DNA of 64,000 nt. It comes from Comamonas resistens. Lineage in GTDB: Bacteria > Pseudomonadota > Gammaproteobacteria > Burkholderiales > Burkholderiaceae_C. How positions within the stretch are numbered: the stretch's first letter is position 1; the number at the start of each line of letters is the position of its first letter. The position numbers and the translations under genes were made by a program. Positions 7,162 to 42,024 of the stretch are shown one piece after another. Where the stretch lies: positions 2,666,001-2,730,000 of the forward strand of contig NZ_CP125947.1 in the NCBI RefSeq assembly GCF_030064165.1, given 5' to 3'. The notes beneath the pieces were generated by a model. That model worked only from the letters and a program-made list of their open reading frames with translations. It made no database searches and was not told where the DNA came from.

Positions 7162-9173
7162 GCCAGTGGTCAGAACGTATTCTCAGCCACTTCACGGCCG
7201 ATCTCACCCGGCTGTGGGTGGCGTGCGACCCGGATGATGTGCTGCTGGACGAAAAGCTGTTGTCCGAACTGCGCAGCCGGGGCTTCGAGGTCATGCTGTA
7301 CGAAGACCCGTTCGCCTTTCGGGCGGAATACGAGGAACGCTATCGCGCAGCCTGGGATCGCGGTGAGGCGGGGCCAGCGCCTTCGCTGGTTCTGCATCTG
7401 CGCAGCGCCGACGCGAATGCGCTGCCGTGGGACATCGTGCACCACGGGCGTGTGGTTCGATTGAGCCTTGCGGAGCTTTTCCCCAGGCTGGCATACAGCG
7501 CGGTACAGCAAGTCGAGCCGGAGCATCTTGCCGGGCTGTTTCATGCACACCAGACGGAATTGCAGAATGCGCGCGGCGAGAACGAGTCCAAGGACTTCAT
7601 TCTCGAGCACGTCTACCAACTGACGCCGCGATCTATTCGCAACCCAGTGGACTTCTGGCGCGAGCTGCTGCGGATGCACTTTGCCAACCGCTCGTTGCCA
7701 CCCCTGTTTGCCCAGCACGCGGCAGGCATCATTCAAGGCAAGGGGCTGTTCACGGATCTGCCCGTCGCCACATGGTTGGCATCCAAGAGTGCGCTGCTGC
7801 GCGTGGTGCAGGATGCCTGGTATCGCTACCTGACGACACTGGGGCTGGATGGCACGCGCACGGGCGAACCGCCGCCGCCAGACTACGTCGCCAAGATCGA
7901 GATTCCGTTCGACCACTCCGATGTGCAGGTGCTGGTCGATTCCATGTTCCTCGACGGCAGCTTGCATCCGCTGGCGGTGCACAGCGTCCCGGCGGGGATG
8001 CCGAGTTGGATCAAGGCGGGGATTGTCCAGGACCCAGCGGCATTGCAGGCCTTGGTGCTCAAAGGCATTGATGGCCTGATCGAGACGATCCCAACGGCAG
8101 CGTCTTCGCACAAGGACTGGAGCGAGTTCGCCAAGCGCTACGGTGAGATCCTGGCCCGCGCGCATGGTCTGCCCGGCACGGAAGCCAGCGAACACTTGCC
8201 GGTGATTCGGGAGCAGATTAAGACCTTGCAAGCGCAATCGGACGAGCATCTGCAAGCCTGGGTCGCAGCCAAGCACTACGCCGACCTGATCCTGCAGCCG
8301 GTGACCAAGGGCCCGGTGATGGTGCACCACGTGCCGCGCTTCTTGCGCCATCGGCGATCCGCAGGGGAAACGAAGGTGGCTCTGCTGGTCTTCGACGGAC
8401 TGGCCTTCGACCAGTGGGTGCAGATCCGCGAGCGCCTGATCGCCACCACCAAACGTTTCGCGTTCGATGAGGGAACCGCGTTCGCATGGCTGCCGACCGT
8501 GACATCGGTGTCGCGCCAGGCGCTGTTTTCTGGGTTGAAACCGCGAGAGTTCGACGACTCCATCGACCGAACGGACAAGGAGGAATCCTTGTGGAAGACG
8601 TTCTGGCAGAACGAAGGCGTCAATTCGAATGAGGTGATGTATCGACGTGCGCTGCGTCAGATTGATCAACTGGACGTGCTTGAGGCGGACTTGAACGATC
8701 GGCGCCCGAAGGTGGTGGGCCTGGTCATCGATGAGGTGGACGATCGGCTCCACAAGGAGCGGTCGAAGAAGGACGTGGCGATGTGGATCGGGAACTGGTT
8801 GACGACTGGTTTCGTCGACCGGCTGTTCTCGCTGCTGCTGGACAGGGGATACCACATCTATCTCACGGCGGACCATGGCAACGTAGAGTCCACCGGCGTC
8901 GGCAGGCCGAACCAGGGCGTCATTGCCGAGACGCGCGGTGAGCGCGTGCGGGTGTATCGGAGTGAGCCATTGCTGGCCGACTCCGCAGCGGCCTATCCCA
9001 GCACGGTCAGGCTTGACGTCGCAGGCCTTCCCGCGAACTTCATGCCCCTGTTCGCAGGCGGACGAACCGCCTTTGTGCCGGAGGGCGACCAGGTGGTGGT
9101 CCACGGCGGGGTGTCGGTCGAAGAACTGATCGTGCCCTTTGTGAAAGTCAGTTATGTGATAGGTACCGAATGA
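7158..9173 (+). CDS. pglZ: PglZ, alkaline-phosphatase-superfamily BREX component
   Basis: PglZ is the hallmark protein of BREX-type phage exclusion. 671 residues, the usual length of the BREX-3 form. Metal-site and nucleophile motifs of the alkaline phosphatase superfamily are present: LLVFDGLAFDQW near residue 410, SVSRQALFSG near 450, LTADHGNVESTG near 568, and VHGGVSVEELIVPF near 647. The N-terminal 350 residues are helical and PglZ-specific. The ATG overlaps the helicase stop (ATGA), and the next gene overlaps its own stop in the same way. It probably works with the methyltransferase and helicase; its biochemical role is still unclear in any BREX system. Confidence 0.92.
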   Translation: MSQWSERILSHFTADLTRLWVACDPDDVLLDEKLLSELRSRGFEVMLYEDPFAFRAEYEERYRAAWDRGEAGPAPSLVLHLRSADANALPWDIVHHGRVVRLSLAELFPRLAYSAVQQVEPEHLAGLFHAHQTELQNARGENESKDFILEHVYQLTPRSIRNPVDFWRELLRMHFANRSLPPLFAQHAAGIIQGKGLFTDLPVATWLASKSALLRVVQDAWYRYLTTLGLDGTRTGEPPPPDYVAKIEIPFDHSDVQVLVDSMFLDGSLHPLAVHSVPAGMPSWIKAGIVQDPAALQALVLKGIDGLIETIPTAASSHKDWSEFAKRYGEILARAHGLPGTEASEHLPVIREQIKTLQAQSDEHLQAWVAAKHYADLILQPVTKGPVMVHHVPRFLRHRRSAGETKVALLVFDGLAFDQWVQIRERLIATTKRFAFDEGTAFAWLPTVTSVSRQALFSGLKPREFDDSIDRTDKEESLWKTFWQNEGVNSNEVMYRRALRQIDQLDVLEADLNDRRPKVVGLVIDEVDDRLHKERSKKDVAMWIGNWLTTGFVDRLFSLLLDRGYHIYLTADHGNVESTGVGRPNQGVIAETRGERVRVYRSEPLLADSAAAYPSTVRLDVAGLPANFMPLFAGGRTAFVPEGDQVVVHGGVSVEELIVPFVKVSYVIGTE

Positions 9174-9892
9174 ATTCATCAGCCCCAAAAATAGGCTTTG
9201 ATCGGTTCATTCAGCTTGATTGGGCGGCTGCGGCACTGAATGTTCGTGCAGGCGTGGCTGGGCTAGATGATCTGAATGCACTGCTCGATGCAGCCGAGCT
9301 TGGCGTGGAAGCCAAGAAGAAAACGCGCACCGTTCTGAATCGGCTGTGGCTGGAGCCGCGCGCCGAACTGGTCGATTACGCCGATCGCGGCGTGGCCATC
9401 CACAACACGCAGCTGGACATTCCCGTCTCAGCACTGTGCTGGGGCATGTCCGTGGCGACGTACCCGTTCTTTGGCAAGGTGGCCGAGCTGGTGGGCCGCC
9501 TGTCCGCCATCCAGGGCGACTGCGCCGCTGCAGAAGTGCATCGGCGCATGAGTGAAACCTATGGGGAGCGCGAAGGCACCCGGCGCATGACCAACATGGT
9601 GATTCAGAGTCAGGCGAGCTGGGGCGCAGTGGAGCGGGTCGAGAAAGGCAAGCGGGTCATTCGCCTGCCACAGACGGGTATCGACAACGATGAACTCACA
9701 GTTTGGCTGATCGAAGCTGTCGTGCGCTACGCCGGCAAGCCGGTTTCAGTGCCCAGCCTGCAGTCGCTGCCCGTGCTGTTCCCGTTCAACTTGACGCGGC
9801 CTTTGGCTTACTTGGTGGCGAACAGCCCGAACCTGATCCTTCGATCAGAAGGTCCGAGTAACCAGTTCGTTGCGTTGCGAGGCGCGCTTTGA
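9170..9892 (+). CDS. Unknown protein in the BrxA position of the PglZ operon
   Basis: 240 residues, starting with an ATGA overlap on the pglZ stop. No catalytic motif or membrane segment is visible. The middle part (PVSALCWGMSVATYPFFGKV, then a helical stretch with ETYGEREGTRRMTNMV) looks like one or two winged-helix domains, a guess from the helix-turn-helix-like spacing. In BREX type 3 the small BrxA gene follows pglZ, and this protein has a similar size and place, but I see no convincing BrxA (DUF1819) signature. A DNA-binding adaptor for the complex is the most likely role. Confidence 0.6.
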   Translation: MNSSAPKIGFDRFIQLDWAAAALNVRAGVAGLDDLNALLDAAELGVEAKKKTRTVLNRLWLEPRAELVDYADRGVAIHNTQLDIPVSALCWGMSVATYPFFGKVAELVGRLSAIQGDCAAAEVHRRMSETYGEREGTRRMTNMVIQSQASWGAVERVEKGKRVIRLPQTGIDNDELTVWLIEAVVRYAGKPVSVPSLQSLPVLFPFNLTRPLAYLVANSPNLILRSEGPSNQFVALRGAL

Positions 9893-33420: not shown

Positions 33421-34062
33421 TCAAGGGATCGCCACGCGACGGGTCTGGTCGCCGGCCTGAAACACGGCGGAGTTGCCCTCGACCGCCTGAAAGCGCCATG
33501 GGCCGAGCGAATCGCCGGGCAGCAGCACCTCAAGCTGGTCGGGCGTGTAAGACCCGGCGCTCGGCGCAACGGACAGGCTGCGTTGACCAGCGCGAAGCTC
33601 GGCACCGACGATGCGAAATGGCAGTGGCGGCGGTTCTGGTTTGGCGGTGGGCCTGCTCGGTGAGCGCGGCTGAGCGGGTGCTGCTGCGCGCGCAACGGTC
33701 TGGCGCGTCTTGATTTGCTCGACCTCGGTGCGCAGCGCCTGAAGGTCGTCAGCAGCGGCATAGCCGCTCAGCGTTTTCTCGAACTGGGCAGCGCGTGCTT
33801 CCAGGAGTTCGCGGGTGTCTTTGAGGTCTGCCGCCGTTGCGACGGCTGGACGCTGCTGGATGGCATCAATGGTCTCGGCCAGGCCCATCGCCTGCGCTTC
33901 GAGACGTTGCAGGCGGGTATCAAGCTGATTCTGGTCGGCCTGCTCGTTCACCGCCTGGTAGCCGAGTGCGACGAAAACGCTGAGGCCGATCAGCCAGAGC
34001 CACATCAGGCTCTGCAACACCACGGCGGTGATCGGGCGACGGGGAGACTGCGCGGCATTCAT
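33421..34062 (-). CDS. ICE transfer-region protein with coiled coil
   Basis: 213 residues. One membrane helix (about 15-35), a coiled coil at about 40-125, a proline-rich linker (PSRPTAKPEPPP), then a small beta-rich domain (FRIVGAELRAGQRSLSV, LEVLLPGDSLGPWRFQAV). The layout resembles periplasm-spanning PilP/PilN-like adaptors. It is coupled by overlap to the PilL-like gene. Exact function unknown. Confidence 0.7.
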   Translation of the reverse strand: MNAAQSPRRPITAVVLQSLMWLWLIGLSVFVALGYQAVNEQADQNQLDTRLQRLEAQAMGLAETIDAIQQRPAVATAADLKDTRELLEARAAQFEKTLSGYAAADDLQALRTEVEQIKTRQTVARAAAPAQPRSPSRPTAKPEPPPLPFRIVGAELRAGQRSLSVAPSAGSYTPDQLEVLLPGDSLGPWRFQAVEGNSAVFQAGDQTRRVAIP

Positions 34063-34637
34063 GGCTGGCCTCCCGAAACCGAAGGCATCAGCGGAAACGT
34101 CTGCACCGCCTCGGCAACAGGCGGCTCGTGTGCGTGCTCGGCGGTCGCGCTGCCTCCAGCCTGCTCAAAGCAAATCTGCCGTGCCCGGTCATTCGCATGC
34201 AGTTCCCAGGCCGGGCCAGCCAGGGTGAGCAGCGCATCGCGCAAGGTCATGGGGCCAAGATGCAGGTGCGCCGCCGGCAGCGGGAGCGCATACAACTCGC
34301 TCACGGCGCGGGACGTCTCGCAAAGCTGGTAGCCGCTGCGTTTGAGCACATGCCGCAGGCCATCGCCCACCGTGGTGCGGGCGTCCTCGGGCATGGACAC
34401 GTCGATGGTCTGCAACAGCAAGTCACGCTGCGCCGCCGTGGGTGCCAGCTCGACCAGCGTGTAGCGGCCATAGCGCACGACGGGAATGAACTCGAGTGCC
34501 TCGGGTTCGGGAACGGAGGCGACTTCTTCTATGGCGTCTGGCACCAGCGGCGCGGTCGTGGTCGTGCAGCCGCTGGCCAGCGCTGCAGCCAGGAGACCAG
34601 CGCCGACCAGACACCGTGATACAGGGATTGCGGGCAT
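34059..34637 (-). CDS. pilL: PilL-like lipoprotein, TIGR03748 family
   Basis: 192 residues with lipobox ALASGC (Cys about 24). Conserved parts are FIPVVRYGRYTLVELAPTAAQRDLL and TVGDGLRHVLKRSGYQLCE, followed by LHLGPMTLRDALLTLAGPAW, which resembles secretin-associated N-domains. It is the first gene of the main transfer operon and faces the three-gene cargo operon divergently. Confidence 0.83.
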   Translation of the reverse strand: MPAIPVSRCLVGAGLLAAALASGCTTTTAPLVPDAIEEVASVPEPEALEFIPVVRYGRYTLVELAPTAAQRDLLLQTIDVSMPEDARTTVGDGLRHVLKRSGYQLCETSRAVSELYALPLPAAHLHLGPMTLRDALLTLAGPAWELHANDRARQICFEQAGGSATAEHAHEPPVAEAVQTFPLMPSVSGGQP

Positions 34638-34958: not shown

Positions 34959-35588
34959 ATGACGATTCGGTCACCTCATCGCGATGCACTGCGAATTTTG
35001 TTCGTCTTAAGAGCAGGAGGCAGCCCTGTCGAACCACCGACGGCTGAGCATGCTCTCGTCTTCAAAGGCGAAGCACGTCTACAAGCTTTCGATTTTTGGA
35101 TGCGAAATCCAGACTATCTTGCGGCGGAGTTGCTTGATTTGTTCGCAGAGACAAAGGACAAGAGCTACTACAAAGCAGCGCAGGTGATCTTGGACGACGA
35201 GGAGCCTGACCTCCGCCGTGTTCCTATGGTTCGGTACTTCTTTGGTGCCTATGAGCGGCTGGATGATGCCCTCTCGCTGCTAAGGTCCCGGGATCTGATT
35301 CGCATCACTGGCACCAAGGGAGCCAAAAACAAGGTCTTGGAGACAGATTTCGTTCTTACGAAGTCCGGCTATGACGTCTGCTCGACCGCAGTGTCGCAGG
35401 AGCCCATTCTTCAATGGTATGCGGATAGGGCTGCATTGGTAGCCAAGATCGCGGGTCCTATGGGTGGGACAGCTTTGAAACAAAAACAGTATCAGCGCGC
35501 GAGCTACGCAGAAACCAAGTTGGGCGGAGTTATCCCGGCCATCACCGAAGATGTACGAGTTCGCCTGATACAGCTGAAATCCGTGTAA
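34959..35588 (+). CDS. First gene of a three-gene ABC-ATPase/nuclease system (middle-component-like)
   Basis: 209 residues, mainly helical, no membrane segment or enzyme motif. The segment FFGAYERLDDALSLLRSRDLIRITG (residues about 89-113) looks like a winged-helix element, and the C-terminus is basic. Small helical proteins like this accompany SMC-like ATPases as kleisin- or winged-helix-type adaptors (the middle component of ABC three-component systems). ATG 34959 has AGGAG 12 bases upstream, rather long spacing. The next gene starts 14 bp after its stop, so they form an operon. The assignment rests on context; the family itself was not recognised. Confidence 0.6.
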   Translation: MTIRSPHRDALRILFVLRAGGSPVEPPTAEHALVFKGEARLQAFDFWMRNPDYLAAELLDLFAETKDKSYYKAAQVILDDEEPDLRRVPMVRYFFGAYERLDDALSLLRSRDLIRITGTKGAKNKVLETDFVLTKSGYDVCSTAVSQEPILQWYADRAALVAKIAGPMGGTALKQKQYQRASYAETKLGGVIPAITEDVRVRLIQLKSV

Positions 35589-35602
35589 CGATGGGGAGAA
35601 AT

Positions 35603-37570
35603 ATGGCAAAACCCAAGGAAGAATGGCTGCGCGCGATAGCAAATCGAGCAGAAGTGGAGACTGCCGCAGTTGAGGGCGTCCTTTCCGCTCACCGAATTCA
35701 ACCATCACCTGTACTTGCCCAGCCTCGCAGACTTGTTCTGCGAGAGATCGAGTTTTCTGGCGAGAAAGATGGCATCGCGAATGCTGGCCCTTTCGCGTTT
35801 TCCTGGACGGCCCTTGATCACGGTCTGTGGGCCATGCTTTCTGAGCATAACCTACGGGGCAAATCAACCATCATCGAAATTGTTCGATGGATGATAAGAG
35901 GAAGACCATCAAGCAACTTGCAAGACGATGTGCGACGATGGGTTCATGCCGTGAGGCTGGGATTCCTCCTTGATTCAGACGAATACGAGATCGTTGCCAG
36001 AACTCAGGGTGAGCCTATCGGCAGCCTGTACCGTATTCGTGCGCCCAGCCCTAGCGGAGGCAAACCGGGGAAAACCGTTCTTGCCGACTTTGCTACCGAT
36101 GGCGAGTTCGAAGCAGTCATGGCAGATTTCTTCATGCGCACGTTCGCGATGGATCCGATATCGACTTGGCGACAGGGAAAAGAAGACGAAGGTCAATCGG
36201 TAACACATAGCTGGGTATCCTTTTCAGGCGCCATGTTCATCGGCACTAACTACGAGGTACTCCTTGGCGACATGCCCGTCACCACTGGCCTCACATCGCG
36301 GTTAATGCAGATGTACCTCGGCGTTCCGTGGGTTTCAACACTCGCTGCTGCGAAGACCGCGCACCAGATCGTTGAGCAAGCTGTTCAAGTTTTTGCGAGA
36401 AAAAATGAACAGGGGCATGAGGCAAGCAAAGAGCGCATTGCAAGCATTAGCGCCCAACTGGCAGAGAAACGTGCCGACCTAGCGAAGATTCCAAGCGATG
36501 AGGCCTTGCGCAACGCCATTGATGCGGATGCGGCCGAGCTAGCTGATATTCGTCGCCAAGAACGAGCCATGGTCGAACATGCGGAACGCGCCGTTGCCGC
36601 GCTCCGAGAACTCACGGCCATTCATCAGGAGGATCGGCGGGACCTTCAGACACACATGGATGCCATGTCCGCAATGGCAGTGTTTCGTCGTCTGGAACCC
36701 AAGTGTTGCCCTCGTTGCGACCACACGATCTCCAAGGTGAAGAAGGAACTTGAAAGTTCCAACCACTCATGCTCTGTTTGCGGTGAGTCGATCACGAGCT
36801 CCGAAGATGGCGAGACGATCAAGGCTGAGCTGCAGGAGCGGGTTGCGGAATCTGATTCCGCAGTAGCGCGCGCCTCGACCAAAAAAGAAGAAGTGGAGGC
36901 TGACTTAGCCACCCTTCGAGAAAAAATTGACATCTTGCAAAGTCGTCTTGAATCAGCTTCTAAAGAGCTAGGTTCCGCAGTGCGACGGCAAGAGGTCGCA
37001 ATAGCCGTAGCTGCTCTGGAAGGTCGGCTGGCGGAGGCCTCAATAAGCCCAGTTGCACAAGCTGACAACCGAAGCGACGAACTGAAAATTCTGTCTGCTG
37101 TCGTGGCGGAAACAGAGGCTCGGGTTAAGGCCGTGAGAGATGGTTTGCTCACCGATGTTTCTGCACGCCTGGTTGAATACGCCAAGGCCTTCGGAATGGA
37201 GAACTTGTTGGAGGCGTCACTGAAGGGAAACGCAGCTCTATCTTTGGTCAAAGGAGGAGTGCCCACGAGCTACAGCAAGGTAACGGAAGGCGAGAAGTTA
37301 CGTCTGAAGGTGGCGACCGTTCTTGCGATGATTGAAATCTCTGAAGCGCGGGGTATTGGTCGGCACCCGGGATTGCTCATGATTGATTCGCCCGCTGCTC
37401 AAGAAGTATCCCCTGTCGACGTCGATCACCTTATTGCGGGGCTTCAGGAAGTTTTTACCAAGCTGCCGCATTTTCAAGTGTTTGTTGCCGGTATCTCGTC
37501 CAAGGCTATAACCGATCACATACCGGAGACGAATCGCCGTGAGGTTGCCGGCAATGCGTTCCTGTGGTGA
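35603..37570 (+). CDS. SMC/Rad50-like ABC ATPase with zinc motif
   Basis: 655 residues from ATG 35603, chosen because GGGGAGAA lies just upstream and overlaps the ATG at 35591. A short helical N-terminus (about 45 residues) precedes the ATPase head. Walker A is the variant EHNLRGKST near residue 86. The coiled coil (about 260-530) is broken by two CxxC pairs, CCPRC (about 368) and CSVC (about 391), as in a zinc hook or ribbon. The signature-like VTEGEKLRLK is near 559, and Walker B is LLMIDSPAA near 590, with the serine usual in RecF/RecN-like branches. It probably senses or holds DNA and controls the nuclease encoded next. Confidence 0.8.
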   Translation: MAKPKEEWLRAIANRAEVETAAVEGVLSAHRIQPSPVLAQPRRLVLREIEFSGEKDGIANAGPFAFSWTALDHGLWAMLSEHNLRGKSTIIEIVRWMIRGRPSSNLQDDVRRWVHAVRLGFLLDSDEYEIVARTQGEPIGSLYRIRAPSPSGGKPGKTVLADFATDGEFEAVMADFFMRTFAMDPISTWRQGKEDEGQSVTHSWVSFSGAMFIGTNYEVLLGDMPVTTGLTSRLMQMYLGVPWVSTLAAAKTAHQIVEQAVQVFARKNEQGHEASKERIASISAQLAEKRADLAKIPSDEALRNAIDADAAELADIRRQERAMVEHAERAVAALRELTAIHQEDRRDLQTHMDAMSAMAVFRRLEPKCCPRCDHTISKVKKELESSNHSCSVCGESITSSEDGETIKAELQERVAESDSAVARASTKKEEVEADLATLREKIDILQSRLESASKELGSAVRRQEVAIAVAALEGRLAEASISPVAQADNRSDELKILSAVVAETEARVKAVRDGLLTDVSARLVEYAKAFGMENLLEASLKGNAALSLVKGGVPTSYSKVTEGEKLRLKVATVLAMIEISEARGIGRHPGLLMIDSPAAQEVSPVDVDHLIAGLQEVFTKLPHFQVFVAGISSKAITDHIPETNRREVAGNAFLW

Positions 37571-37575
37571 CCAAC

Positions 37576-39540
37576 ATGCATCCGATTGAAGCAGAACTTA
37601 TAGAGGCCGTGAAGAGCGGGCGGGACTGGCAGTTGGAAGATCTTGGCGGGATCACGAAGCTTGCGTCGGCAGCACGATCGCTCGGTAGCACGCCCATGAT
37701 GCCCGAACTGCTTCACCCGCTTGTGTTGGGGTGGAACGATGCAAAAACAGCAGATCGGGACGTGTACAAAGGCGTCCTGCACGATCTATTGGAGGTCGCA
37801 ACAACAGATTTCGTACTCCTTGAAGCGGTCGATATCCTAGAACATCATCGCCCGCTGCCGGACGACGGAGATGAGTGTTGCTTCATGCTCTTCCTTGCAA
37901 AGGCCGCAACCGGCGACCATTCGCTCTCTGGGCTATCGCGCGGCGCGGCGCTTGATGGCGCGTTTCGCTGGGCCGGAGACAACAGGCGCTGGCAACTTCG
38001 CTTACTGGACTTCTTCCTCGGTCTTGCGCCAAGCGACGATACAGAGTTCCTGCGGCGGGCCGCCAAGATTGTCGGTGTCGCTTTTTCGCACTGGCGTGAC
38101 AAGGAGTTGGTCGAGGTTTTGCACAAACTCGCCCAACTCGAAGCGGTCCGGCCCGAGGCAGCATTCGAGTTGGGAATGGCGGCTCTTGCTGAAGCCATGG
38201 ATAGAGGGGACAGCAACGCGGCAGTCACGGCATTCCGTGACGCCAGAGACTGGTTTGGAGAGTCCGACGGAGTGTCTGATCACCATCCTGAAGCCAGCTT
38301 GTACCTCGATGGCCTCGACCTACTCCTGAGCTTCCACAGCGGGGCCGCAAGCGCATCGATCAGTGTCGTAAGCACTCGCGTTCAGCAGCATGCGTTCGAG
38401 CTCCACGCCTGGTCCGGAGGTTCCGGCCCTCCGTGGCTGGGGGCGAGGCAGACCGAAGCGGTGTGTTGGAGTGTGTTGGCCAGTGCTGTTGCGGGACTGG
38501 CAGGCGCACTTGACGAACCGAGTTGGTGGGAACCGGCTGTTGTCATCGAGGAAGGTCTCCTGTCGGTGTACAGCGCAAGTCGATCGATCTTGCGTCGAGA
38601 TCAGCACGGTGGCGTCGAAGCGATGGTCAGGCCTCGAATACGTGCAAGTGTCGCCACTCGGGCCGGACAGGTGCATCAAGTTCGCATGTGGCTCCAGCAA
38701 AACGCGACCCATGAATGGATTGCGGAAGCGCAGGATCTGATTGCACAGATTGATGCCTTCGTTGAACAGTCAGGCGGTCGGGAAAACCCTCCTGAGGCGG
38801 CGAATGAACGGGCCCGGCTCGCCGCCATCATCGCAGGGTCCAGCATTCCAGAAGAACAGAGGAATGTCCTTCTGGGTGTAGTCGCGAACGCCATATCTCT
38901 GCAACTTTCCAACATGACAAGTGCCGAAGCCGATGTCATAGAGCGCTGCTGTAACGAAGTTCGTGGGCACTCCGACTACAGCGCGAACACGAACGGGGCA
39001 CGTCTCTTCGATACCGTGCTTCTCTGGTTGGTTCGTTTTATTTTCAATCGTCTGGAATTGACTAAGGGCGATGACCCAACTGGCGCCTATCTCTTCGAAC
39101 GCGATGATGGTTCACTGCCTCACGAGGATGAACTACAGCAGGACTTTTTTCGCTGGGTGGCAACGTATGCAGCAGGGAGCGACCTTGAACCGACAAACAT
39201 TGCGAGTGGCAGAGCCGATATACGTCTGAAGTCTGGCCCAGAACGTCTCGTTGTCGAGGTGAAACGTGAGGAAAAGGACTGTTCTTTCGATGCGCTTTTT
39301 AAGTCATATGCAGCACAAACGGCGGACTACCAGAACGTCAGCATCCGATTAGGCGTACTGTTGGTGCTCGACTTGGCGACACCCAACCGCGAAGGCACCC
39401 CGCATTTGACGAGTTTATTTGAGGCTCGCCGCGTTCATCGCTCAGGCGAGGATCAGTCGCGGTTTATCCTAATTGTCAAGATTCCCGGTCGGCGCAAGAG
39501 ACCAAGCGATCTTACAAAGCTTGCCAGAACCAGCCGGTAG
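37576..39540 (+). CDS. Large helical protein with C-terminal PD-(D/E)XK nuclease domain
   Basis: 654 residues from ATG 37576, which has GGTGA just ahead within the upstream gene's end; GTG 37564 would overlap that stop. The first 500 residues are helical repeats with no known motif. The last 140 carry a nuclease pattern: HEDELQQDFF (about 515), GRADIRLK (about 544), LVVEVKREE (about 560) and SYAAQTADYQ (about 577), giving E, D, ExK and Q positions of restriction-type enzymes. Likely the effector of the three-gene system, cutting DNA when the ATPase is triggered. A hairpin of the neighbouring operon follows it. Confidence 0.75.
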   Translation: MHPIEAELIEAVKSGRDWQLEDLGGITKLASAARSLGSTPMMPELLHPLVLGWNDAKTADRDVYKGVLHDLLEVATTDFVLLEAVDILEHHRPLPDDGDECCFMLFLAKAATGDHSLSGLSRGAALDGAFRWAGDNRRWQLRLLDFFLGLAPSDDTEFLRRAAKIVGVAFSHWRDKELVEVLHKLAQLEAVRPEAAFELGMAALAEAMDRGDSNAAVTAFRDARDWFGESDGVSDHHPEASLYLDGLDLLLSFHSGAASASISVVSTRVQQHAFELHAWSGGSGPPWLGARQTEAVCWSVLASAVAGLAGALDEPSWWEPAVVIEEGLLSVYSASRSILRRDQHGGVEAMVRPRIRASVATRAGQVHQVRMWLQQNATHEWIAEAQDLIAQIDAFVEQSGGRENPPEAANERARLAAIIAGSSIPEEQRNVLLGVVANAISLQLSNMTSAEADVIERCCNEVRGHSDYSANTNGARLFDTVLLWLVRFIFNRLELTKGDDPTGAYLFERDDGSLPHEDELQQDFFRWVATYAAGSDLEPTNIASGRADIRLKSGPERLVVEVKREEKDCSFDALFKSYAAQTADYQNVSIRLGVLLVLDLATPNREGTPHLTSLFEARRVHRSGEDQSRFILIVKIPGRRKRPSDLTKLARTSR

Positions 39541-39587
39541 CAGTTGCTCTGCGCTTGTTGGCGTTCATGGAACTTGTTGGGATAAGA

Positions 39588-39626
39588 AAAAGCACAGCCA
39601 TGTCCACGTAAGCGTGGGCATGGCTG
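39588..39626 (-). terminator. Terminator between the cargo operon and the helicase gene
   Basis: Arms CAGCCATGTCCACG / CGTGGGCATGGCTG (39595-39626) pair over 13 of 14 positions around TAAG. On the minus strand the stem is followed by TGCTTTTTCTT, ending helicase-operon transcription before it runs into the convergent cargo genes. Confidence 0.85.
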
Positions 39627-39677: not shown

Positions 39678-41957
39678 TCAGGCGGTGACCAACTGCCGGG
39701 CCAGTGCGACCTCGACGGAATCACCGTCCTGGTTCAGAACATCCAGCCCCGATTCGGGCACATCGCCCGAGGTGGACTGCGAGACCATGATCTTCTTGGC
39801 CATCAGTTCCAGGCAGGTCATCTGCGAGGAACCGGCGTAGCCGAGGTAGATCACGCACACGGGCTGTTTCTGCCCAATGCGCCAGGAGCGGCGTGCTGCC
39901 TGTTGGAGCGAGTACACGTTGTAGCCACTTTGCATGAACACAATCGTCGGGAACTCCAGCAGGTCCAGCCCCGTCTTGACCAGCTCGGGATTGGTGACGA
40001 GCACGTCGATGCCCCGGTCCAGTTGCTCGGCGATCCAGTCCTCGCGGCGGCTGGCATCCACGCTTGCGCGCAGTACCGCCACCTTGAATCCTTCCTGCTC
40101 CAGCAGCCCCTTCAGGCGCGACGTGGTGTCGCGCGTGCCGGTATAGACCGTGTAGGCCAGAACCTTGCGGCCCTGTGTCTTCTCCTGCTTGCAGATGTCG
40201 ATCAGCTCACGCTCCTTGGGGCTGATCTCGAACTCATTGAACTGAGCCGGGACAAACGCCAAGGTGTTGCGCGTGCGCGGATGCACCACGGTCTCCGACC
40301 GGAAGCAGCAATCCGGCCAGGCCAATAGCACGTTGAGCACCACACCCAGCAAGGTCGTGTCGCGTCGCGCCAGAGCCTGTTTCAGCTCTGCGGTCAGCCG
40401 ACCCGCCAGATCGCGGTAGGCCGCAGCTTGCGCCACGTCCATCTGGACTTCACGAAACTCCTCGTCATACGGCGGCAGGACGTTGCCGCCGATGTCCTTG
40501 AGCTTGAGGAAAATCGTGAACGGCAGGATGCAGCGCAAGACGCCTTTCGGGCCGAAGCCGGGAGCCTTGACCGTGCGCACCGATACCTTGGTGCCATTGG
40601 CTGTCTTGTGCGCCGTGCCGGTGCTCTCGGAATAGATGTCCTTGAGGACGCCGTGATCGCGCATGAACGCCATCGCAGCCGAGGTCATGCTGCCGCTCGT
40701 GGTCGGGCGGTAGCCGTCTTCGATCATCCGTCCAGGCAGCGCCCGGAACAGCAGGTAGAACAGATCATCGCCATAGCCGCCCATCAGCGTGCCGGTCAGC
40801 AGCAAGGTCTTGCGAGCCTTCGCCGCCAGCACGCCCATGGCCTGGCCCTGGGCACTGCCACCGTTCTTGTACTCGTGCGCCTCGTCGGCGATGAGCAGGT
40901 CGAACGTGCCTTGCGGCAGGTAGCGCTTGATGAACTCGGACGGTTGGTAGCCGCCTTCGCCAAAGCCAAACTCCATGTTGGCCATCGCACGTTCCATGCG
41001 CGTGGCCTGACGGTCGGAAAACACCAGCTCGCCGTTGCCATCCATGAGGTTGATGAACTCATGGATGTTGTCGCCCAGCATCGAGGCCAGGAAGCCGTCA
41101 CCGAACTTCTGCATCAGCTTCTGCGCGGTGACCTCCCCGATGGTCGGGATGCGCTTCAAGGCTTTGAGGACGACCGAGGACTGGTCACTGCCGGACAGGC
41201 TGCGCGGGCGGATCAGCGTCCACAGGGGCGCGGCGCAGTGGCTGCACTTCCTGCGGGACTCCTCGGCTTCGAGCGAGATCGGGTTGACCGGCTCGCCGTC
41301 GAGGTCGGTGATGAGCGTGCCGCAGTCCGGGCAGGCTGCCACGTCGCCGTGGCGGGTGCGCCGCTGGGTGAAGACCGGCTTCCAGTGGAACCCCATCCGC
41401 ATCCTGACGCGGCCCAGGATGAAAAACTCCTGGCCCGTGGGCTGCACACCCAACTGCTCGCGCAGCTTGATGAGCTTGACCAGCGTGTCCGGGCCATTGA
41501 GCACCCAGACCTTGGCGCCGGCCACCGTCTCCTGGATCTCGCGCCGCCACTTGTAAACCAGGTGGGGTGGCGAAAGCACCAGGGTGCGGCGGTAGCCTTC
41601 GGCGTTGAGCACGGCGGCCGTGGCGATGCCGACGGTCGTCTTGCCGCAGCCCATTTCACCGTTGACGATCGCAGCGCGCTCGCCTTGATCGACCAGCAGC
41701 TCGGCGGCGGCATGGACAACGTCGGCCTGGGCCTGGAACAACTTGCGCTTGAGGCTGGCGACGACGAGTTGTCGCTGCGCCTGTGCTTGACCGGCATAGA
41801 CCGGCGGGTTGGCGCGGTTGAGAGAGTCGAGCAGTTCGTCGCCGAACTCGCCGACAAAATCCTGAAGGCTCAGGGTGAGAGGGTTGGATTCCGCTTCGAG
41901 CAGTTCGTCCTGTACGGGCGCTGAATCGTTGGCGGTGGTGTCGAGATCGAGGGACAT
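39678..41957 (-). CDS. Superfamily 2 DEAH helicase of the ICE
   Basis: 759 residues from ATG 41957. Motif I GEMGCGKTTVGIAT near 125, a four-cysteine ribbon (CPDCGTLITDLDG and RKCSHCA) in the middle, motif II LLIADEAHEYKNG, motif III LLTGTLMGGYGDD, and C-terminal motifs VTNPELVKTGLDLLEFP and SLQQAARRSWRIGQKQP. This is a SNF2-like helicase of a kind found in the accessory region of ICEclc-type elements. It may act in ICE replication or DNA processing. It has a GC-rich hairpin leader. Confidence 0.85.
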   Translation of the reverse strand: MSLDLDTTANDSAPVQDELLEAESNPLTLSLQDFVGEFGDELLDSLNRANPPVYAGQAQAQRQLVVASLKRKLFQAQADVVHAAAELLVDQGERAAIVNGEMGCGKTTVGIATAAVLNAEGYRRTLVLSPPHLVYKWRREIQETVAGAKVWVLNGPDTLVKLIKLREQLGVQPTGQEFFILGRVRMRMGFHWKPVFTQRRTRHGDVAACPDCGTLITDLDGEPVNPISLEAEESRRKCSHCAAPLWTLIRPRSLSGSDQSSVVLKALKRIPTIGEVTAQKLMQKFGDGFLASMLGDNIHEFINLMDGNGELVFSDRQATRMERAMANMEFGFGEGGYQPSEFIKRYLPQGTFDLLIADEAHEYKNGGSAQGQAMGVLAAKARKTLLLTGTLMGGYGDDLFYLLFRALPGRMIEDGYRPTTSGSMTSAAMAFMRDHGVLKDIYSESTGTAHKTANGTKVSVRTVKAPGFGPKGVLRCILPFTIFLKLKDIGGNVLPPYDEEFREVQMDVAQAAAYRDLAGRLTAELKQALARRDTTLLGVVLNVLLAWPDCCFRSETVVHPRTRNTLAFVPAQFNEFEISPKERELIDICKQEKTQGRKVLAYTVYTGTRDTTSRLKGLLEQEGFKVAVLRASVDASRREDWIAEQLDRGIDVLVTNPELVKTGLDLLEFPTIVFMQSGYNVYSLQQAARRSWRIGQKQPVCVIYLGYAGSSQMTCLELMAKKIMVSQSTSGDVPESGLDVLNQDGDSVEVALARQLVTA

Positions 41958-41980
41958 GGTGATGCTCCAAAGAAAAATGG

Positions 41981-42024
41981 GACATGCACCACCCCAGCGG
42001 GGCGATGGCATGCCCCGTGATGGG
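41981..42024 (-). promoter_or_regulatory. GC-rich hairpin leader before the helicase gene
   Basis: Plus-strand blocks ACCCCAGCGGGGC and GGCATGCCCCGTGATGGG form alternating CCCC/GGGG pairing. Same plan as the leaders of eight other genes downstream. Confidence 0.55.

Follow-up and report, generated by a model that had tools for sequence, protein, structure and literature searches.

A probable Lamassu-family defence operon with a predicted inverted nuclease effector, carried by an integrative conjugative element of Comamonas resistens

The lmuC-lmuB-lmuA operon and its proteins

We analyse here a three-gene operon, lmuC-lmuB-lmuA, that lies in a stretch of 64,000 nucleotides (nt) of the genome of Comamonas resistens (contig NZ_CP125947.1, positions 2,666,001 to 2,730,000; this whole stretch is called the window below). 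The operon consists of three densely spaced open reading frames (ORFs) on the + strand at 34959-39540, the products of which match PADLOC profiles over their full length with 263 bits (LmuC), 731 bits (LmuB) and 682 bits (LmuA). We therefore propose, at a probability of roughly 0.8, that it is a defence operon of the Lamassu family (type II-like, of the ATP-binding cassette (ABC) three-component kind), carried as cargo by an integrative conjugative element (ICE) of the PFGI-1 class. The genes and the parts of their products that are discussed below are as follows.

34959..35588, + strand: lmuC, small component of 209 amino acids (aa); PADLOC LmuC family PDLC03872, 263 bits; AlphaFold2 model
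35591..37570, + strand: lmuB, ABC ATPase resembling Rad50 and the structural maintenance of chromosomes (SMC) proteins, 659 aa; PADLOC LmuB family PDLC03864, 731 bits over residues 5-659
35843..35869, + strand: Walker A motif EHNLRGKST of LmuB, residues 85-93
36707..36781, + strand: four-Cys motif CPRC-x17-CSVC of LmuB, residues 373-397, a probable zinc site
37373..37405, + strand: Walker B motif LLMIDSPAAQE of LmuB, residues 595-605, with Ser replacing the catalytic Glu
37564..39540, + strand: lmuA, effector of 658 aa with a GTG start; PADLOC LmuA family PDLC03853, 682 bits over residues 5-652
37564..39063, + strand: N-terminal alpha-solenoid of LmuA in the model, residues about 1-500
39124..39534, + strand: C-terminal PD-(D/E)XK domain of LmuA, residues 521-657, from the order of secondary structure in the model and the invariant residues

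The preliminary description of this DNA, made from the letters and their ORFs, had noticed three coupled genes opposite to the transfer genes and more AT-rich than their surroundings, and the ORF positions, the strands and the base composition agree with this. The lmuB and lmuA ORFs overlap by 7 nt, and the GC content of the three genes is 0.53-0.57 versus 0.64-0.67 for five ICE backbone genes, with the GC content at third codon positions (GC3) being 0.54-0.60 versus 0.76-0.87. Since the ratio of nonsynonymous to synonymous substitution rates (dN/dS) is 0.055-0.14 in nine pairwise comparisons, indicating purifying selection, lmuC, lmuB and lmuA are taken to be real genes. It is noted that LmuB probably starts at M5 (ATG at about 35603, after the four codons of 35591-35602), because many relatives begin there.

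The conservation of single residues is given for alignments of LmuA (A1, 60 rows) and LmuB (A2, 67 rows), which together with a third alignment (A3, 60 rows) include the window and were picked from the best 120 of 208 (A1), 197 (A2) and 417 (A3) matches, and for a wider set of 41 rows, namely the 42 loci with paired LmuB and LmuA described below, minus L109 and L110 (probably repeats of L005 and L028), plus the window. In LmuB, the features that had been read before, i.e., the Walker A motif EHNLRGKST, two CxxC pairs inside a coiled coil and the Walker B motif LLMIDSP (residues 595-601), are all present with their key residues conserved, the coiled coil being the part for which the basis is a weak profile similarity to the arms of SMC-type proteins. 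N87, R89, G90 and K91 of Walker A are identical in 67/67 rows, as are the four cysteines of the pairs at 373/376 and 394/397, which are also kept in 40 to 41 of the 41 rows of the wider set. What had been overlooked is the loss of the Walker B Glu: D-S is present in 67/67 rows, and in the wider set the position is occupied by Ser in 38 rows, by Ala in 2 and by a gap in 1. A zinc-hook-type Cys motif in the arm is found in many, although not all, Lamassu LmuB proteins, and the present LmuB has it, with a putative role in dimerisation. Unlike the Rad50 hook, the two CxxC pairs in one chain of this LmuB could bind zinc without a partner. In the LmuB of described Lamassu systems the Walker B Glu is replaced by Gln (PMC10586767), and Thr is at this position in two canonical-type operons (L092 and L093). 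With the Glu absent in these proteins also, slow or absent ATP hydrolysis may be general to LmuB.

We next consider LmuA. The PD-(D/E)XK superfamily has an alpha-beta-beta-beta-alpha-beta core with the residues E...D...ExK...Q. In the model of LmuA, with a mean predicted local distance difference test score (pLDDT) of 80.9, an all-helical superhelix runs to about residue 500 and is followed by alpha-beta-beta-beta-alpha-beta, along which lies the motif E542...GRAD552...E565-V-K567...Q585xxxY589. The eight residues E542, G549, R550, D552, E565, K567, Q585 and Y589 are identical in 60/60 rows of A1, in 27/27 diverse rows down to 26% identity, and in 41/41 rows of the wider set, the window included. 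The modelled core order and the invariant residues are thus those of the superfamily, and the C-terminus looks like an intact PD-(D/E)XK site, the QxxxY end of which presumably recalls the RecB-type nucleases. The motifs GRADI...VEVK...Q (residues 549-585) that had been read at the end of the protein are therefore present with conserved key residues, behind about 500 residues that model as helical, and because the active site is invariant, a non-catalytic fold of this domain is unlikely. In a Pfam scan of 27 members, weak superfamily matches (Mrr_cat, PDDEXK_9 and DpnII-MboI) were obtained in one member each and no nuclease match in the LmuA of the window, and the nuclease part alone gave nothing up to E 10 against the sequences of the Protein Data Bank (PDB). 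For the superhelix, the matches listed by Foldseek and VIA are generic HEAT/ARM/TPR solenoids with no single relative picked out, and they are not above the chance level for helical repeats. The new sensor that had been suggested for this N-terminal part, a possibility resting on its size, has not been borne out, as the part models as a generic alpha-solenoid within the effector and the sensing in the described Lamassu systems is by LmuB (PMC10586767).

The small component LmuC, which had been called a helical adaptor, has helices in its model (pLDDT 77.7) but is not purely helical, as the model also contains a beta-hairpin and a winged-helix-like part. Its fold search against the PDB gave no confident match, with none better than E 0.22.

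Probable assignment to the Lamassu family

A Lamassu system consists of the SMC-like sensor LmuB, the small LmuC and the effector LmuA, and acts against phages and plasmids by abortive infection (PMC10586767, PMC12409362); LmuB is the component common to all Lamassu systems, with the effectors being varied (PMC10586767). Seen here are an SMC-like LmuB (PADLOC, 731 bits) and an LmuA effector with a predicted enzymatic domain (682 bits; PD-(D/E)XK site in 41/41 rows). Moreover, the full-length matches to PDLC03853, PDLC03864 and PDLC03872, which represent the same proteins, mean that the subtype is catalogued already, in library entries that are silent on domain order and mechanism. We thus take the operon to be a variant, and a well-conserved one, of the Lamassu defence that is already known, and not a defence of a new kind.

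The closest comparison is with the Lamassu type II system DdmABC of Vibrio cholerae, which has likewise an LmuB of about 650 aa with a Cys motif and without the Walker B catalytic Glu, a small LmuC and a nuclease LmuA, in a three-gene operon on a mobile island. Three differences are evident. The first is the gene order, which is A-C-B there and C-B-A here, so that lmuC is the first gene and not the middle one as is usual in type II, still being directly 5' of lmuB; the same holds in comparison with the ABC-3C clade (PMC10586767, PMC12409362), which shares the ABC ATPase, the small component and the effector. The second is the replacement of the Walker B Glu, which is Glu to Gln in described Lamassu and Glu to Ser here, where there are also the two CxxC pairs. 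The third is the domain order of the effector. In the described LmuA the enzyme is N-terminal and the docking part C-terminal, which is stated as likely (PMC10586767), DdmA being Cap4 plus an unidentified C-terminal domain (PMC12409362). By contrast, the modelled LmuA is inverted: its nuclease is at residues 521-657, at the opposite end and behind the alpha-solenoid, and the solenoid would be the natural docking part of the protein. Neither the inverted LmuA nor the C-B-A order is mentioned in the passages of PMC10586767, PMC12409362, PMC12904381, PMC8565338 and PMC12799240, although both may have been published elsewhere.

Several observations weigh against the assignment. Against the other PADLOC families of the same names, LmuA has no match and LmuC has one of 11 bits (E 0.044), and hhalign comparisons of the two proteins with single sequences of canonical operons are not significant. 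For LmuB, the comparisons by hhalign with two single canonical LmuB sequences are weak (probability 3.5 and 29.6), and its kinship therefore rests on the profile matches to other PADLOC LmuB families, of 77, 71, 49 and 28 bits, most of which fall within the arm and the C-terminal half of the protein. In addition, no Lamassu-named chain is among the matches listed in the sequence searches of solved structures with the three proteins or in the fold searches with LmuA and LmuC. Membership of the Lamassu family would thus be carried mainly by LmuB, the profile library and the operon logic.

General searches were of little help in either direction. Pfam gave nothing above the cut-off for the three whole proteins, and NCBIfam likewise. 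The coil of LmuB matches SMC_prok_B with 20 bits and the SMC-related ASRP with 35 bits, scores that fall well short of the cut-offs of these profiles. In the PDB searches, the best match of LmuB was at E 0.53 with the single sequence and at 0.085 (YbgF) and 0.16 (Rad50 hook) with the profile, that of LmuA was Hrd3 at E 0.019 with the single sequence and nothing better than 0.62 with the profile, and LmuC had no match; a viral structure library gave nothing at E <= 0.001. The label PF28130, on 3 of the 120 listed LmuA matches (of 208), is an accession that could not be confirmed in Pfam.

It should be considered, therefore, whether the operon belongs to a separate SMC-like lineage that works like Lamassu, where a relative of LmuB recruited its own adaptor and solenoid-nuclease, so that LmuA and LmuC would be analogues and not homologues of their namesakes. 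The missing homology of LmuA and LmuC just described, the inverted domain order together with the different gene order, and the presence of one effector in 42 paired loci versus the varied effectors of Lamassu (PMC10586767) would all be expected from such a lineage. However, the matches of LmuB to four further LmuB families, at 28-77 bits, are above its match to JetC (16 bits at best), and the small gene is directly 5' of lmuB here and in both canonical-type operons, which have the order lmuA-lmuC-lmuB and in which PADLOC names all three genes (L092) or LmuB alone (L093), i.e., the small gene in one of them. We regard this explanation as a real though doubtful possibility.

A decidedly unlikely explanation is a direct nuclease in the manner of Wadjet, with LmuB extruding or gripping small circular DNA and LmuA cutting only that, the host being spared. 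The anti-plasmid system JetABCD also pairs an SMC-like ATPase with a nuclease partner, and the small winged-helix-like LmuC adds to the likeness; moreover, carriage by a conjugative element would favour the exclusion of rival plasmids. Against this, JetA, JetB and JetD have no match at E <= 1 among the three proteins, JetC matches the coil with just 6-16 bits, the nuclease has a PD-(D/E)XK site and not the Toprim domain of JetD (PMC10586767), and the catalytic Glu for a motor driven by hydrolysis is absent. Rad50 and the SMC proteins themselves have in common with LmuB the weak coil matches; here the chain is much shorter, with two CxxC pairs per chain and no Walker B Glu.

Linkage of the genes, their neighbours and the cargo site

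It had been argued that the defence reading would fall if homologues of the three genes occurred apart, and mostly they do not. A search of genome contigs with LmuB gave 25 loci, from beta- and gammaproteobacteria, Magnetococcales, Acidobacteria and Planctomycetes, with the order C-B-A in 25/25 as far as the contig reaches (in L014 and L029 lmuC would lie beyond the contig end). Among plasmid records, LmuB was found in 36, of which 20 are known from the match table alone; the first 12 loci retrieved (5 more were retrieved later) all carry C, B and A in order by profile. LmuA was found in 29 plasmid records, with an adjacent LmuB match in 28, and the remaining one is an orphan in Rhodococcus opacus pROB02 (L095), which has no LmuB or LmuC match within the 9 kb examined. 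Eight LmuB plasmid records gave no LmuA match by tblastn; of the six that were retrieved, the profile recovered LmuA in four, namely L074, L075, L096 and L099, and not in L097 and L098, both with a broken lmuB. When 398 sampled genomes of the phylum were searched with a profile built from A1, LmuA was found in 8, the own genome included and 3 of the 8 probably being the same records as loci already counted. Six have the complete C-B-A, in G536 LmuA stands beside a split lmuB on a contig that ends before lmuC, and G458 has a C-terminal fragment of LmuA alone, near a contig end. The exceptions are thus contig ends, broken copies, one LmuA fragment and one orphan LmuA.

Above the length cut-offs, LmuB is present in 45 loci, LmuA in 44 and both in 42, with lmuB before lmuA in 42/42 paired loci and the same 7-nt overlap in 24 (longest ORF). 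The five unpaired loci are L075 and L079 (LmuA below the cut-off), L098 (broken), L090 (starting at the locus end) and L095 (the orphan). Over the 41 rows of the wider set, the LmuA and LmuB distances correlate with r = 0.986, the best of 999 permutations, which ignore kinship, being 0.31; taken separately, the two parts of LmuA correlate with LmuB at 0.98 (solenoid) and 0.95 (nuclease part). The tree of LmuA (a quick one) and that of LmuB have the main groups in common and differ in details. No other effector was found beside this LmuB lineage in searches seeded with its own proteins, which distant swaps could escape. Together these comparisons suggest a lasting partnership of LmuA and LmuB across phyla, which is not met in the passages on described Lamassu systems.

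A broken lmuB, split or truncated, was also observed in L024, L029, L070, L097 and L098, from Providencia, Magnetococcales, Roseovarius and Streptomyces longwoodensis, with lmuA still open beside it in L024, L029 and L070. The apparent fusion of LmuB and LmuA in S. longwoodensis (CP109035, L098) was rejected, as its LmuB part covers profile positions 10-575, LmuA has no match in it and it looks like a broken copy.

Beyond these relatives, a search of 369 genomes of the class with PDLC03853 gave a strong match solely in the own genome and two others under 20 bits, and IMG/VR gave 2 loci only. No match to the operon was found among the proteins of phage records, none in a distant DNA search of E. 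coli genomes with the first 4000 bases, and no near-identical DNA among plasmids.

Many of the relatives are near other defence genes. In the scan, which covered 110 of 120 picked ORFs near 24 loci (L006 being left out), matches to 212 PADLOC families were obtained at 1e-10, versus 19 families, each in at most 2 ORFs, for a control of 105 ORFs that were selected in the same way around 20 arbitrary places in ten genomes of the class; this is a contrast and not a test, with control genomes from other hosts and one ORF able to match many families. The leading families among the first 25 listed are PDC-S32 (7 ORFs), AbiEi (6), AbiEii (5), GajA/AriA/PtuA-type ATPases (4) and GajB (3), and because nine of the loci are close relatives, these counts are not independent. 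With the Lamassu profiles, the co-occurrence of the genes and these neighbours, the earlier reading of a defence module in which an SMC-like ATPase is coupled to a nuclease, as in ABC three-component systems, is supported as probable.

Two further genes were observed immediately 5' of lmuC. One, present in 4 of the 25 genome loci, encodes a protein of about 362 aa (L005:8284-9369, L008:8145-9368, L011:8083-9369 and L009 at about 8332-9363), to which neither Pfam (E <= 0.01) nor PADLOC (E <= 1e-4) gave a match in L005, L008 and L011. It may be a fourth component that some of the operons have, or it may be independent of them. Comparisons for a remnant of its 3' end in the window score within or barely above shuffles, the strongest one, with the Diaphorobacter locus L006, reaching 42.0 versus 37.5 for the best shuffle. 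The loci of the Zoogloea/Accumulibacter group have at this place a different gene, of about 304 aa (L013:8456-9367; also L015, L016, L017, L021 and L027); it matches AbiJ_NTD4 and PDC-S32 in L013 and L017, the two scanned singly, and in several of these loci an AbiE toxin-antitoxin pair lies ahead of it.

The host element in the window is a PFGI-1-class ICE, with the flanking - strand genes encoding a TraC-type ATPase, TIGR03752, TraD, TIGR03759, PilL2, a replication protein of the STY4534 family, topoisomerase III and ParB. The features next to the operon are as follows.

34059..34637, - strand: pilL2, ICE backbone, left border of the cargo site; TIGR03748, 144 bits
39585..39626, - strand: possible terminator, a hairpin and T-run 3' of the helicase gene, between the convergent lmuA and helicase genes; read by eye
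39678..42011, - strand: SNF2-like helicase, ICE backbone, right border of the cargo site; Pfam SNF2-rel_dom, ResIII and Helicase_C

A hairpin resembling that at 39585..39626 is present in Diaphorobacter caeni (L006), where the same element carries the operon at the position that it has in the window; the hairpin of the window is not among the matches of a terminator pattern scan. The plasmid pTM3 of Tistrella mobilis (L067) has the same element, with TraD 97% and the helicase 95% identical, and nothing in its pilL2-helicase gap of about 170 bp (L067:7399-7571). In L061 the same junction holds about 4.9 kb of unrelated genes (L061:10222-15111), by eye not defence genes. With this junction being empty in pTM3 and differently filled in L061, we conclude that it is a cargo site. 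The own genome has a second related ICE helicase (L060), 79% identical and with other genes beside it, pilL2 being not found in the stretch examined.

That the operon is flanked by conserved backbone genes of the ICE, both in the window and in Diaphorobacter, could also be expected if it were a module for the maintenance of the ICE or for entry exclusion, acting, for example, on the transfer intermediate of the ICE itself. This is highly improbable, since the otherwise similar pTM3 element is without the operon, since close matches to the ICE genes of the window were found in L006 only among the 25 genome loci (within the stretch examined; L012 and L014 have distant ones, of 29-39% identity), and since the relatives are on chromosomes and plasmids, partly beside defence genes.

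Proposed mechanism and its meaning

Based on the Lamassu assignment, it is most likely that LmuB and LmuC would sense foreign DNA and license the nuclease of LmuA, by which the infection would be aborted. In the proposed pathway, an LmuB dimer with LmuC would clamp DNA and recognise an aberrant structure, such as a free end, a hairpin or a stalled fork, arising from a replicating phage or plasmid. Because the catalytic Glu is missing, the closure of the LmuB-LmuC complex would be brought about by ATP binding and not by rapid hydrolysis. The N-terminal alpha-solenoid would keep LmuA inactive on the complex until the sensing frees or rearranges it, whereupon the C-terminal PD-(D/E)XK domains would meet and LmuA would cut DNA without sequence choice, with the cell being killed or arrested, i.e., abortive infection. 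For DdmABC it is reported that the effector is freed, forms a tetramer and switches on the Cap4 nuclease (addendum, PMC12409362), and the mechanism of the described systems is also treated in PMC12904381. A point against the proposed pathway is that release and tetramerisation, reported for an effector with N-terminal Cap4, may not suit a C-terminal nuclease.

It is also conceivable, although we hold it unlikely, that the LmuA solenoid has a role comparable to that of the HEAT subunits in SMC complexes, where it would read whether LmuB is bound to ATP or DNA and move the nuclease onto the trapped DNA accordingly. If this is true, the effector would act inside the complex instead of being released to form tetramers, and this would account for the lasting pairing of LmuA and LmuB with one effector type among the relatives examined from Proteobacteria, Acidobacteria, Planctomycetes and Actinobacteria.

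With the operon taken as a Lamassu variant, we have here a conjugative element in which a defined cargo site is occupied by a probable anti-DNA system, and the pilL2-helicase junction of this type of ICE is worth a survey. Moreover, an inverted and widespread lineage in which no change of effector has been seen would be a natural test of the signalling from LmuB to the effector, and the inverted LmuA would also test whether release with oligomerisation is the sole switch for a Lamassu nuclease.

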